Source of the DNA: Halolamina litorea
GTDB lineage: Archaea > Halobacteriota > Halobacteria > Halobacteriales > Haloferacaceae
Assembly: GCF_026616205.1 (NCBI RefSeq)
Contig: NZ_JANHGR010000001.1
Location: 1,674,001 to 1,738,000, forward strand
DNA length: 64,000 nt
Direction: 5' to 3'
Part shown: positions 11,419 through 16,294 of the stretch, in pieces
Position numbering within the stretch: position 1 is the stretch's first letter
Layout: every line of letters starts with the position of its first letter
The notes under the pieces: generated by a model
The model's input: only the letters and a program-made list of their open reading frames with translations
The model's database searches: none
Told to the model about the DNA's origin: nothing
Translations under genes and position numbers: made by a program

Positions 11419-13275
11419 ATGTCTACCAAGGAATCAACTGAAGGTACACTCGAGGAACTATACCGGTCCCGAATCGGCGAACCACGGACCGACGACGAGG
11501 TGCGTGGCTACTGGGTGTTCGTCGTCGGCCTGTTCCTCGGCGTCGCCGGCGTCCTGCTGTTCCTCGCCAGTCAACCACAGGGGAGCATCAGGCAGGCGTC
11601 GATGATCGCGGTCGGGGTGGGGCTGATACTCGTGTTCGTGGGAACCGTGATCCGTCTCCCCTTGCAACCACGGGCGCTGCTCTTAGTGTATATCGGTGGC
11701 GTGGTTGCGTTCGCCGGCGTCGCCTACTTCGTCGCCGTGTTCCCCGACGGGTGGTCGCTCCGGAACGGGAACGCCGTCGTGATCACCCTCTACGGGCTCG
11801 GGCTGTTGATCATCGGCATCGGGGGCATCGCCGTCCCGCTGCTCGGGAGCGCCGACCGGAACCCGGAGGCGGCGACACTCCGGCGTGAACTGGCGGAACT
11901 CGACGACGTGCTCGAGGACGCCGCGGCCGACGAGGAGGACCTCGCCGCCGAGGTCGGAGAACTCCGACGGGAACTCGACGACTCCGAGAACGCCGCGGCC
12001 ACACTGCAGGCCGCCGTCGCGTCGCTCACCGAGGAACTCGCGGAGGCGGAGGGCGAGGAGACCGAACTCCGGCGAGAGTTGGCGGCGCTCGACGACGTGC
12101 TCGAGGACGCCGCGGCCGACGAGGAAGACCTTGCCGCCGAGATCGGCGAACTCCGGCGGGCGCTGGCCGACTCGGAGAACACGGCCGCCACGCTCGGGCA
12201 GGCCGTCACAGCACTCTCGGCGGACCTCGCCGACGTCGAGACCAGCGAGGACGACCTCATCGAGCAACTCTGGTCGCTCCGACAGAGCCAGGCCCGCTTC
12301 GAACTGTACGAGGACAAGCGCGGCGAGTACCGGTTCCGCCTCCGACACCGCAACGGCAACGTCATCGCGACGGGCGGCGAGGGGTACACACAGCGGCACA
12401 ACGCCCAGAACGGGATCGAGAGCGTCCGTCGGAACGCGCTGGGGGCGCCGGTGCTCCGGATCGAACCCGAGCCGGACGAAGCTGCCGAGACCGGCGACGC
12501 GGCGGAGTCGGCTGCGCCGGCCGAGCCCTTCGAGGAACCCGAGAGTCAGACGACCTTCGAACTGTTCGAGGACAAGCGCGGGGAGTTCCGCTGGCGGCTC
12601 CGCCACGACAACGGGAACATCGTCGCCGACAGCGGCGAGGGGTACCGCCGGAAGTCGGCTGCCACGAACGCCATCGAGCGGGTTCAGGGCTACGCCGGGC
12701 CGGCCGAATACCTCCGACTCGACCCGACCGGGTTCGAGGTCTACCGTGATGCGGCGGGCCAGTGGCGCTGGCGACTCGTCCACCGGAACGGCAACGTCCT
12801 CGCCGACGGCGGCGAGGGGTACACTCGGCGCCGCGACGCTCGCCGCGCCCTCGACCGGGTCCGTGAGGGGATGGACGACCTCGAGTTCGAGACCTACGAG
12901 GACGACGCCGGGGAGTACCGCTGGCGGTTGAAGTCCGGCAACGGACGGATCGTCGCCGACAGCGGCGAGGGCTACAGCAGGGCCTCGGCCCGCGACGACG
13001 CCGTCGAACGGGTGCGGAACTACGCCCCCGACGCTCACGCACTCGACATCGGGCCGGCCGCCTTCGAGGTGTTCGAGGACAAGGGCGGGAAGTTCCGCTG
13101 GCGGCTCCGCCACCGGAACGGCCAGATCATCGCCGACTGCGGCGAGGGCTACGCCGAGAAGTCCAAAGCCGAGGACGCGGTCGATCGGTTCAAACTGAAC
13201 GCCCCCGACGCCGAGGTGGTCGAGGAGGGCGACGGCGCGGACGACGACGAACCGGCCGCCGAGGACGCAGCGTAG
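11419..13275 (+). CDS. membrane-anchored coiled-coil protein with five DUF1508 repeats
   Basis: A 618-residue protein in three parts. Residues 30-140 hold four hydrophobic helices. Residues 150-290 form an acidic coiled coil made of two near-identical 63-residue copies (LDDVLEDAAADEEDL at 161 and again at 224). Residues 294 to about 600 hold five copies of a 45-50 residue unit starting at about 294, 380, 439, 490 and 549, each reading FE-x-[YF]-x-D-x-x-G-[EQK]-[YFW]-R-[FW]-R-L-x-x-x-N-G-x-[IV] and then GEGY. This is the DUF1508 (YegP-like) motif, usually found as one or two copies in small proteins. A 28-residue acidic Ala/Glu-rich linker separates copies 1 and 2, and the tail is acidic. The repeats are probably cytosolic. 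Function unknown. Confidence 0.85.
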   Translation: MSTKESTEGTLEELYRSRIGEPRTDDEVRGYWVFVVGLFLGVAGVLLFLASQPQGSIRQASMIAVGVGLILVFVGTVIRLPLQPRALLLVYIGGVVAFAGVAYFVAVFPDGWSLRNGNAVVITLYGLGLLIIGIGGIAVPLLGSADRNPEAATLRRELAELDDVLEDAAADEEDLAAEVGELRRELDDSENAAATLQAAVASLTEELAEAEGEETELRRELAALDDVLEDAAADEEDLAAEIGELRRALADSENTAATLGQAVTALSADLADVETSEDDLIEQLWSLRQSQARFELYEDKRGEYRFRLRHRNGNVIATGGEGYTQRHNAQNGIESVRRNALGAPVLRIEPEPDEAAETGDAAESAAPAEPFEEPESQTTFELFEDKRGEFRWRLRHDNGNIVADSGEGYRRKSAATNAIERVQGYAGPAEYLRLDPTGFEVYRDAAGQWRWRLVHRNGNVLADGGEGYTRRRDARRALDRVREGMDDLEFETYEDDAGEYRWRLKSGNGRIVADSGEGYSRASARDDAVERVRNYAPDAHALDIGPAAFEVFEDKGGKFRWRLRHRNGQIIADCGEGYAEKSKAEDAVDRFKLNAPDAEVVEEGDGADDDEPAAEDAA

Positions 13276-13300: not shown

Positions 13301-14905
13301 TCAGCGACGCCAGTACTCCGGCGTGAGACAGACCAGCAGCGGCAGTATCTCCAGCCTACCCGCCCACATCAGTCCGACCATGAACAGCTTCGAGGTGTTC
13401 GGGAACGGGATGTAGCCGCCCATCGGGCCCAGTCGGTAGAACGCCGGGCCGACGTTGCCAAGCGTCGACGCCGCCGCCGAGATGAGTTCGAGGACGGTGA
13501 ACTCCATCCCCACCCGCGTACTGTCGATGGCGAGCACGAACGCCCCGAGGAAGAACACGACGAGGTACAGCAGCGTGAACGTCATGATCCCCCGGACGGC
13601 ACGGTCATCGAGGGCGTTCCCGCCGAGCCTGACCGGCCGGACCGCCTCGGGGTGGGCGCTCGTGAACAGCTCCCGCCGGACGGTTTTCGCGATGACGATC
13701 CACCGAATGATCTTGACGGCCCCACCCGTCGACCCCGCTGAGCCGCCGACGAACATCCCGAACAGCAGCGCGTACTTCGCCGCGGAGCCCCACATGTCGA
13801 AGTCGATGCTCGCGTAGCCCGTCGTCGTCACGATGGAGACCGCTTGGAACAGCGCGTGGCGGAGCGACGGTTCGAGGCTGCCCGTGAGGGCGGCGGCCTG
13901 CTCGGTCAGGTAGGCGGCGTCGAACGTCGCCCCCTCGGGGACGCCCGTCGCGAAGCCGCCGGTGAACAGCAGTCCGGTGATGATGGCCGTCAGGACGCCC
14001 ATCGCGCCGAGGTAGCCACGGAACTCGGTGTCGTTCCAGAGCTTCTCGGGCGACCCCGAGAGCGCCCGCCAGATGAGCGCGAAGTTCGTTCCGGCGATCA
14101 CCATGAACGGGATGATGACCCACTGGACCGCCGCGGAGAACGCCTCGATGCTGCGAGCCTGCGGGGAGAACCCGCCCGTCGGCATCGTCGTCAGTCCGTG
14201 TGCGACGGCGTTGTAGGCGTCCATGTTCGGGCCGGCCATCCCGGCGAGGTCGAGGCCGTAGAGCAACATGATCTCGACCACGGTGATGGCGAAGTAGGCA
14301 CCCCAGAGCACGCGAGCGGTCTCGGCGATCTTGGGGCTGAGCTTCTCTATCCCCGGGCCCGGGGCTTCGGCGTCCATCAGCTGTGCGCCCCCGACGGAGA
14401 GTTCGGGGAGGATCGCCACCGCGAGCACGACGATCCCCATGCCGCCGAGCCACTGAGTGAGCTGGCGCCAGATCATCACGCCGTAGGTGTGGTCGGTGAC
14501 GTTGATGCTGCCGAGAACGGTGGCGCCGGTGGTGGTGAACCCAGACATCGACTCGAACAGCGCGTTGGCGGGGTTGCCGAGCGTCGAATCGGGGTGGATC
14601 GGTGAGAGCAGCCCCGGGATCCCGTGGGCCTCGACGAGGTACGGGATGGTGCCGACGACGGCGACGGCGAGCCACGTCGTCGCGACCATCAGGAACGCCT
14701 CCCGCGGCCCGATGTCGGGATCGGGAGCCAACCGCTCGAGCCCACCGCCGGCGAGCAGCGTGACCGCGATGGTGAGCACGAACGGGGCGACCGTCTCACC
14801 GTAGAGCAGCGCCACGACGACGGGGAGCAGCAGGGGGACGGTGAGGTACTTCAGTACCGTCCCGACGAGGCTGAGGCTTGCACGGTAATCGACGCGTATC
14901 GACAC
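13301..14905 (-). CDS. trkH: TrkH family potassium uptake channel subunit
   Basis: A 534-residue integral membrane protein with the four-fold M1-P-M2 layout of Trk/Ktr channels. The four selectivity-filter regions are visible as SGFTTTGAT, TTMPTGGFS, VTTTGYASI and STLGNVGPA; each has the central glycine. The C-terminus (LVCLTPEYWRR) is as in other archaeal TrkH. It should import K+, the main compatible solute of haloarchaea, gated by the nucleotide-binding TrkA encoded 54 bp upstream on the same strand. Confidence 0.95.
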   Translation of the reverse strand: MSIRVDYRASLSLVGTVLKYLTVPLLLPVVVALLYGETVAPFVLTIAVTLLAGGGLERLAPDPDIGPREAFLMVATTWLAVAVVGTIPYLVEAHGIPGLLSPIHPDSTLGNPANALFESMSGFTTTGATVLGSINVTDHTYGVMIWRQLTQWLGGMGIVVLAVAILPELSVGGAQLMDAEAPGPGIEKLSPKIAETARVLWGAYFAITVVEIMLLYGLDLAGMAGPNMDAYNAVAHGLTTMPTGGFSPQARSIEAFSAAVQWVIIPFMVIAGTNFALIWRALSGSPEKLWNDTEFRGYLGAMGVLTAIITGLLFTGGFATGVPEGATFDAAYLTEQAAALTGSLEPSLRHALFQAVSIVTTTGYASIDFDMWGSAAKYALLFGMFVGGSAGSTGGAVKIIRWIVIAKTVRRELFTSAHPEAVRPVRLGGNALDDRAVRGIMTFTLLYLVVFFLGAFVLAIDSTRVGMEFTVLELISAAASTLGNVGPAFYRLGPMGGYIPFPNTSKLFMVGLMWAGRLEILPLLVCLTPEYWRR

Positions 14906-14959
14906 GGTTGTTCCCGAGGAGACGCGTTCAGCGTTTCAAGCTACTGTTTCGGGGACCGA

Positions 14960-16294
14960 CTACAGCAGCCCCGACACTTCGTCGGCGTGCTCGGAGTCGA
15001 CGAACAGCACGACGTGATCGCCGGCTTCGAGCGTCGTCGCCCCGCGGGGGACGGTGTACTCGCCGCCGCGGATGATGGCGCCGATCACCACGTCGTCGGG
15101 GAGTTCGTGGATCGACTCCTGGATCTGTTTGCCGGCCAGCGGGCTGTCGGCGGCGACCTCGATCTCGAGCACCTCCCCGCGCCCGCTCTCGACCATCGCG
15201 ACGTTCTCGGCGCCGCCGGCACGGGTAAACCGGGTGATCTCCTCGGCGACGACCTGCCGGGGGTTGATCCCCACGTCGATCCCGACCCGCTCGAACAGGT
15301 CGACGTACTCCTCCTGATCGATGACGGCCACGCTCCGGTCGGCGCCGACCCCCTCGGCCAACAACGACGCGAGCAGGTTCTTCTCGTCGGAGTCGAGCGC
15401 GGCGACGACGACTTCCGCGTCGCCGATGTGTTCGCGCTCGAGGAACTCCACGTCGGTCGCGTCGGTCTCCATCACCATCGTGTCGGGGAGCTTCTCGGCG
15501 AGTTCGCGGGCCCGCTCCGGATCGCGTTCCAGCAGCCGGGCCGAGACGCCACGCTCGCTCAGCAGGCGGGCGATGTGGTAGCCGATCTCGCTGCCGCCGA
15601 CGATCACCACCTCGCCGGAGAGGGCGGTCTCGTCTGGGGCCACGTCGCCCGCGAACGAGCGGACGCTGCGGGGCGTGCCGATGACCACCAGTCGGTCACC
15701 CGAACAGAGCTTCGTCTCCCCCGTGGGGATCTGCATCTCCTCCTCGCGGACGATGGCCGCGAACGTCAGGGCGTCGTAGGTGTCGGCCTCGGCGACGGTC
15801 TGCCCCGAGAGGGGCGACTCCTCGCCGACCTCGAACTCCGCCATCTCGACGCAGCCGTTGCCGAACGTGTCCGCGTCCCGAGCGGCCGGGAGGCCGACGA
15901 CGCGGACGATCGACTCGGCGGCCAGCAGGTACGTACAGACCATGAAGTCGATCCCGAAGGCGGACTCGGAGTGTTGCCACGTCCGGAGGTACTCGGTGTT
16001 CTTGATCCGGGCGATGGTGAACGCGTCCGAGATCGCCTTCACCGTCGAACAGACCACGATGTTGGTCTCGTCGTCGTCGGTGGAGGCGATCACCATGTCG
16101 GCGTCGGTCACGCCGGCTTCCTCGAGCGCCGAGACGCTCGTCCCGTCGCCCTGTACCGCGAGCACGTCGAGGGAGTAGTTGATCTCCTCGACCCGGTCGG
16201 GGTCCTGTTCGACGATGACGACGTCGTGAGCGTCGCTCAGGTCGGCAGCGATGCTCTCCCCGACCTGCCCGGCGCCGACGATGATCACACGCAC
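14960..16294 (-). CDS. trkA: Trk potassium uptake system protein TrkA
   Basis: A 444-residue cytosolic regulator with the duplicated RCK plan: TrkA-N (1-125, starting with the nucleotide loop GAGQVGESIA), TrkA-C (about 140-215), a second TrkA-N (about 225-345, VIVGGSEIGYHIA) and a second TrkA-C (about 360-444). Two-RCK TrkA proteins assemble as a gating ring under TrkH and respond to NAD(H) or ATP/ADP. Genes for the SRPBCC protein, TrkA and TrkH lie in this order on the minus strand with gaps of 39 and 54 bp, so they are probably co-transcribed. Confidence 0.95.
   Translation of the reverse strand: MRVIIVGAGQVGESIAADLSDAHDVVIVEQDPDRVEEINYSLDVLAVQGDGTSVSALEEAGVTDADMVIASTDDDETNIVVCSTVKAISDAFTIARIKNTEYLRTWQHSESAFGIDFMVCTYLLAAESIVRVVGLPAARDADTFGNGCVEMAEFEVGEESPLSGQTVAEADTYDALTFAAIVREEEMQIPTGETKLCSGDRLVVIGTPRSVRSFAGDVAPDETALSGEVVIVGGSEIGYHIARLLSERGVSARLLERDPERARELAEKLPDTMVMETDATDVEFLEREHIGDAEVVVAALDSDEKNLLASLLAEGVGADRSVAVIDQEEYVDLFERVGIDVGINPRQVVAEEITRFTRAGGAENVAMVESGRGEVLEIEVAADSPLAGKQIQESIHELPDDVVIGAIIRGGEYTVPRGATTLEAGDHVVLFVDSEHADEVSGLL

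Follow-up and report, generated by a model that had tools for sequence, protein, structure and literature searches.

What five copies of DUF1508, the YegP-like domain, might be doing on one membrane-anchored chain is the question raised by an open reading frame of the window (the whole 64,000-nucleotide stretch of Halolamina litorea DNA analysed here). DUF1508/YegP proteins are widespread and several of their structures have been solved, yet they have so far not been assigned a function, and the papers searched contain no description of an array family of this kind, the domain that precedes the array (DUF7139) being named in none of them and DUF1508 in two only. A sequence-only reading had placed the frame at positions 11419-13275 and had described it as four membrane helices and an acidic coiled coil followed by five DUF1508 units. 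The frame is indeed present on the + strand and encodes 618 residues; the existence of homologues in five congeners, 67-73% identical to it, rules out a chance or spurious frame, and among named relatives the best hits are H. pelagica and H. rubra, which agrees with a place in or close to Halolamina. Its features are as follows.

11419..13275, + strand: whole gene, DUF7139, coiled coil and five DUF1508 units; 618 residues, ATG start (Pfam, orthologues)
11446..11832, + strand: DUF7139 (PF23600) membrane domain, residues 10-138; Pfam E 7.7e-25, four helices in the AlphaFold2 (AF2) model
11863..12282, + strand: acidic stalk, predicted coiled coil, residues 149-288; AF2 helices at 149-169 and 179-288, hydrophobic period
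11872..12249, + strand: 63-residue (9-heptad) duplication covering most of the stalk, with copies at residues 152-214 and 215-277 that share 45 of 63 residues and have 76% DNA identity
12292..12447, + strand: DUF1508 unit 1, residues 292-343 (Pfam); C-terminal strand unformed in the AF2 model
12448..12549, + strand: flexible acidic linker between units 1 and 2; pLDDT <50 at residues 344-367, joint variable in orthologues
12550..12705, + strand: DUF1508 unit 2, residues 378-429 (Pfam); spaced 59 residues from unit 3 in all 120 orthologues
12727..12879, + strand: DUF1508 unit 3, residues 437-487 (Pfam); 51 residues before unit 4, as in two-unit YegP
12883..13035, + strand: DUF1508 unit 4, residues 489-539 (Pfam)
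13057..13212, + strand: DUF1508 unit 5, residues 547-598, then an acidic tail (Pfam); nearest to HVO_2922 (6q2z), E 5.5e-16

Pfam matches DUF1508 (PF07411) in five separate stretches of the protein (292 bits in total, E 6.4e-89), and each unit searched singly scores 51-76 bits against a cut-off of 22, so that the profile search named beforehand as the check by which the five units could fall has instead placed every one of them in the family. The NCBIfam model for HVO_2922 (NF041908) likewise matches five stretches (357 bits, over its cut-off), and the labels that NCBI gives to array proteins are "DUF1508 domain-containing" or "HVO_2922 family". Despite this match, we do not class the window protein as an HVO_2922 orthologue: that model describes a small soluble protein of a single unit, and the window protein has 618 residues, a membrane domain and five units. 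Five UPF0339 proteins, among them HVO_2922 from Haloferax volcanii, came out of a PDB comparison as its nearest solved relatives.

The four membrane helices are borne out by AF2, which places long helices at residues 25-50, 56-79, 84-107 and 119-143, and the region proves to be a known domain left unnamed by the earlier reading, DUF7139 (87.7 bits against a cut-off of 30). Positive residues at the N-terminus and in the loop between helices 2 and 3, which would lie inside, together with the even number of helices, suggest that the array is cytoplasmic. The stretch between the membrane part and the units (about residues 146-291) is acidic as described, with 45 D/E against 10 K/R, and its hydrophobic residues recur with a period of 3.5 residues (score 5.03; 1.9 or less at the other periods tested), on which grounds we regard it as a coiled coil. 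At 151 residues the stalk of the window protein is longer than that of its congeners (86-93 residues, with a single copy of the 63-residue segment), and it was lengthened in this species through a duplication of exactly nine heptads, which is visible at the protein level; a tandem-repeat search of the DNA found no long array. Some orthologues have a stalk of no more than 18-35 residues, so that dimerisation through it is not general.

The arrangement had also been thought exceptional, and here the earlier reading does not hold. A search for multi-unit architectures, which it had proposed, recovered a conserved family in two fixed-size classes, DUF7139-DUF1508 proteins of five and of 13 units, across the haloarchaea. 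DUF7139 occurs in 277 of 293 haloarchaeal genomes, mostly without DUF1508; the five-unit profile matches 198 of 392 haloarchaeal genomes, of which about 119 reach E 1e-60 or better and are counted as having five-unit orthologues, and the 13-unit profile matches 105 of 392. Single frames with DUF7139 comprised 46 five-unit and 24 thirteen-unit proteins in a first set of loci, and a second set, overlapping the first in part, held 73 five-unit frames; the loci were picked with the profiles of these two classes, and the sample is biased towards both. Forms with one, two, three or four units were also matched by the class profiles, though they were few, and numbers other than five and 13 mostly reflect split or reduced genes. 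Five-unit and 13-unit proteins are thus sister classes of an ancient haloarchaeal family and the window protein is no one-off. Among 197 genomes of the phylum that were searched, those outside the order returned only short single-unit DUF1508 matches, one per genome, and the annotated YegP-family proteins examined in plasmid and phage records were small. DUF1508 arrays therefore look haloarchaeal, bacteria having been covered through those plasmid and phage records, and the generalisation that one or two copies of DUF1508 are usual stands outside the haloarchaea in the sample searched and fails within them. A phage origin was considered and set aside: one weak single-unit phage match was found, and viral DUF1508 models were short only. 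Other combinations were met with along the way. A shortened remnant, part of DUF7139 with one unit, lies beside intact TrkH and TrkA genes in one Halolamina genome (G002; L046:6150-6575, - strand). A second 13-unit form, without DUF7139 (L143-L153), accompanies the membrane form in some genomes and has a Cdc6/Orc gene upstream of it at 5 of 12 loci. Four DUF1508 units stand at the C-terminal end of a family-2 glycosyltransferase (L054:4921-7227, + strand), and an Amphi-Trp domain is fused to one or two units (L064, L066, L072, L073), those of the two-unit fusions being spaced 70 residues apart.

Spacing was measured between the conserved Trp residues of successive units, using 120 five-unit proteins of which 102 are unique. 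Units 2 and 3 are 59 residues apart in all 120, and units 4 and 5 are 59 residues apart in 116 and 58 in the other four. The two remaining joints vary, from 65 to 137 residues between units 1 and 2 and from 49 to 85 between units 3 and 4, where 51 is the commonest value. The 13-unit class has one clearly free joint, between units 5 and 6, and otherwise mostly spacings of about 57-59 residues with no clean pair pattern. Clean gene splits fall at the variable joints. In several lineages (Haloparvum, Halopenitus with its relatives, two Natronomonas, one Halorubrum and one uncultured lineage), the membrane frame ends just past unit 3 and the next begins with a Met at unit 4, the two lying anywhere from a 4-base overlap to 111 bases apart; one further locus (L162) is split after unit 1 with a 4-base overlap, and among the loci examined there was no clean split between units 2 and 3 or between units 4 and 5.

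The units also keep their identities. In 495 of 510 cases the nearest relative of a unit in another, not closely related protein was the unit at the same position, and the array must therefore be old and has not been reshuffled. Taken with the invariant 59-residue spacing and the sites of the splits, this positional identity shows a fixed modular order of unit 1, then 2-3, then 4-5. A repeated platform at the membrane, the interpretation proposed at the outset, is a fair reading in so far as it goes, except that for these same three reasons the units are not equivalent, independent repeats. That unit number and spacing are fixed across haloarchaea suggests a scaffold with a precise fold, lying on the cytoplasmic side of the membrane.

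How the units might fold together is best approached from their relatives. In the YegP-like fold, which has three strands, a helix and a fourth strand, partners exchange C-terminal strands (SCOP), so that two units make up one whole. In the PDB, single-unit members are deposited as two or eight chains with one sequence and the two-unit proteins YegP and SO_3888 as one chain, which is consistent with an obligate pairing of units. The AlphaFold model that had been called for, computed by AF2 from the window protein and 46 orthologues (mean pLDDT 83, with a low pTM of 0.44), shows the four helices, long stalk helices and DUF1508 units 2-5 mostly at pLDDT >90. The model builds the C-terminal strand in units 2, 4 and 5, whereas unit 3 leads directly into strand 1 of unit 4 and no such strand follows unit 1. 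In Foldseek the full-length model matches YegP over 115 columns (TMt 0.79, rmsd 3.0), and the model should therefore contain at least one two-unit YegP arrangement. We had initially favoured pairs of neighbours, 2 with 3 and 4 with 5, on account of the exact 59-residue spacing, and have dropped them because the AF2 model of a natural protein consisting of units 4-5 is not YegP-like: both of its C-terminal strands are disordered and only its single units, each taken separately, can be superposed on YegP (TMt 0.41, rmsd 15.1), so that units 59 residues apart seem not to pair with each other. The units of YegP and SO_3888, which do pair, are spaced 51 residues apart, which equals the joint between units 3 and 4. 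The models, the PDB comparison and this spacing suggest that units 3 and 4 may form a strand-swapped pair of the YegP type and that 2 pairs with 5, the latter by elimination, given that the C-terminal strands of 2 and 5 are ordered, with unit 1 left for another chain. Residue identity to YegP and SO_3888, compared by unit pair, did not single out the pair 3-4, and a coupling analysis between units had an effective 43 sequences, too few for the purpose, its top couplings between units 3 and 4 being an artefact of overlapping windows. An argument from parity, according to which the odd numbers 5 and 13 would leave one unit to pair between chains, was also dropped, as natural one-, two-, three- and four-unit forms exist; it is further weakened in that each of the two main classes may stem from one event.

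Our preferred reading, to which we give a probability of about 0.45, is that the protein is a cytoplasmic, membrane-tethered haloarchaeal scaffold whose array folds back on itself and which either cross-links with its own kind or holds soluble partners. The four-helix DUF7139 domain would provide the hold on the membrane and the coiled coil a spacer of variable length, probably dimerising. The five YegP-like units would make up a fixed structure in which a unit is complete only when paired, as partners swap their C-terminal strands. Units 2-3 and 4-5 would be two rigid arms of a hairpin, with the turn between units 3 and 4 able to tolerate insertions and gene splits. Unit 1, flexibly tethered at the end of the stalk, would lack a partner in its own chain and might find one in a second chain, whose own unit 1 the coiled coil would bring near, or in a soluble protein of the HVO_2922 type, with the result that the protein would cross-link itself, or keep soluble partners, at the membrane. 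What weighs most against this is that some reduced forms lack unit 1 and others have no real coiled coil; orthologues with one, two, three or four units mean that neither unit 1 nor an odd number of units is essential. A more specific version, in which the fold-back is nested (3 with 4, 2 with 5) and the tethered unit left over is an open half-site for a soluble one-unit protein or another chain, making this an archaeal membrane assembly built by strand swapping, is in our view doubtful as a whole. Should the nested fold-back be correct, lineages in which the gene is split into three units and two would build the same object from two separate proteins; should the open half-site be correct, controlled assembly at the membrane would be the first concrete role for YegP-like units. 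That two joints vary and the others are exact makes for a clear structural prediction, and the natural split versions make the pairing testable.

Gene neighbourhoods offer the five-unit class no conserved partner, no neighbouring gene being conserved beyond the genus. Potassium genes were tried in this capacity and rejected. In every Halolamina locus read, TrkH and TrkA genes (13301-16294 of the window, - strand) run convergently towards the array gene, and in Haloarcula weak, distant TrkA-like genes lie about 4 kb from many copies, with one beside the plasmid copy of Haloarcula marina; outside these two genera the Trk genes are absent. In the 13-unit loci (n=24; L123-L142 and others) the pantoate kinase gene adjoins in 17 of 24 and the phosphopantothenate synthetase gene in 15 of 24, on the same strand. 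The 13-unit gene between these CoA enzymes is often followed by Thi4. Since the two enzyme genes are directly adjacent in many genomes without a 13-unit gene, the latter sits within an old CoA-synthesis gene pair. All seven Halolamina genomes (G000-G006) lack phosphopantothenate synthetase (PF02006), which is present in 31 of 33 other relatives searched, and CoA synthesis may thus be different in this genus.

Pairing within the chain could be dispensed with altogether if the array were a multivalent docking rod, each unit a half-site for a soluble HVO_2922-type protein and up to five of these gathered on one chain. The multimers formed from one sequence in single-unit DUF1508 structures, the two further DUF1508 frames of the same genome (70 and 127 residues) and the unpaired state of isolated units 4-5 in AF2 agree with such a rod. 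We nevertheless think it rather unlikely, because the full-length model, with no partner present, has confidently ordered C-terminal strands in units 2, 4 and 5 and matches YegP as a two-unit whole. Nor do we favour a drifting tandem array, without a precise fold, whose unit number is merely inherited: each size class may come from one ancestor and a few lineages have lost units, yet drift would not spare two joints only, and across proteins 41-72% identical to the window protein two joints are exact and two are free while the units retain their positional identity, which makes this explanation very improbable.

Other readings give the array something to sense or to dock. A transmembrane domain joined by a coiled coil to cytosolic domains is a common layout of sensors, and the units might bind a small ligand or stress signal whose state the coiled coil would relay to the four-helix domain. 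This layout, the convergence of TrkH and TrkA on the gene in Halolamina and the presence of HVO_2922 among the genes up-regulated under perchlorate stress in Haloferax volcanii (PMC12175516) speak for a sensor. It is nonetheless unlikely given that Pfam and NCBIfam scans found no catalytic or known output domain in the protein, that the Trk linkage is lost in most genera, and that stalk length is not conserved, a lineage-specific 63-residue duplication being odd for signalling even if nine whole heptads keep the register. Least probable of all, and by our estimate very unlikely, is that the array serves defence or contractile injection by docking a stress-induced or phage-tail-like machine at the membrane. 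In 57 loci close to immune operons, YegP homologues come after capK-capS (PMC13373217), and tandem YegP-like units are detectable in Cis12 (All3315), whose extra domain is a wide connector contacting the membrane in the thylakoid-anchored injection system of Anabaena. Against this, the array is found in about a third of haloarchaea with no conserved neighbour; the best PADLOC matches are noise from the coiled coil, and the single match that covers a unit reaches a weak E 6e-4 with no stretch of its own; the Pfam scan found no baseplate domain, and no contractile-injection gene family is conserved around the gene.

Set beside known systems, the scaffold that we favour is closest at the level of the unit to HVO_2922 (PDB 6Q2Z; NF041908; UPF0339/DUF1508), every unit of the window protein matching that family with the same predicted fold; HVO_2922, however, is a soluble single unit of 60 residues, whereas the window protein strings five position-specific units on a stalk and a membrane domain. 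Escherichia coli YegP (2K8E) and SO_3888 (2K49) are two-unit chains with the spacing of 51 residues seen between units 3 and 4, and differ from the window protein in being soluble, in having two units only and in their lower identity to it. With other DUF7139 proteins (PF23600) it shares the four-helix N-terminal domain, although most of these are found in open frames of about 270-370 residues without DUF1508. One ordinary paralogue is encoded in the same genome (L068:5758-6942, - strand) and ends in a DUF7140 motif (PF23601); this DUF7140-ending protein suggests a paralogue family with one membrane domain and different tails. The 13-unit DUF7139-DUF1508 proteins, mostly of family f7, resemble the window protein in domain order, fixed copy number and position-specific unit signatures, and depart from it in their 13 units, in having no real stalk and in their usual place between the pantoate kinase and phosphopantothenate synthetase genes. 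Beyond the UPF0339 set, just one solved protein matches well, namely Cis12/All3315 (7B5H), which has tandem YegP-like units (profile E 4.3e-6, Foldseek probability 1.00) but is a baseplate protein without membrane helices and of very low identity, no single matched stretch being significant. Its membrane-contacting extension (PDB 7b5h chain AD, residues about 680-1161) appears to hold the tandem units, and a marginal YegP-like match (E 0.05) was seen in Algo12/Alg12. Cis12, while no evidence of membership in such a system, is a precedent for tandem YegP-like units serving as a structural arm.
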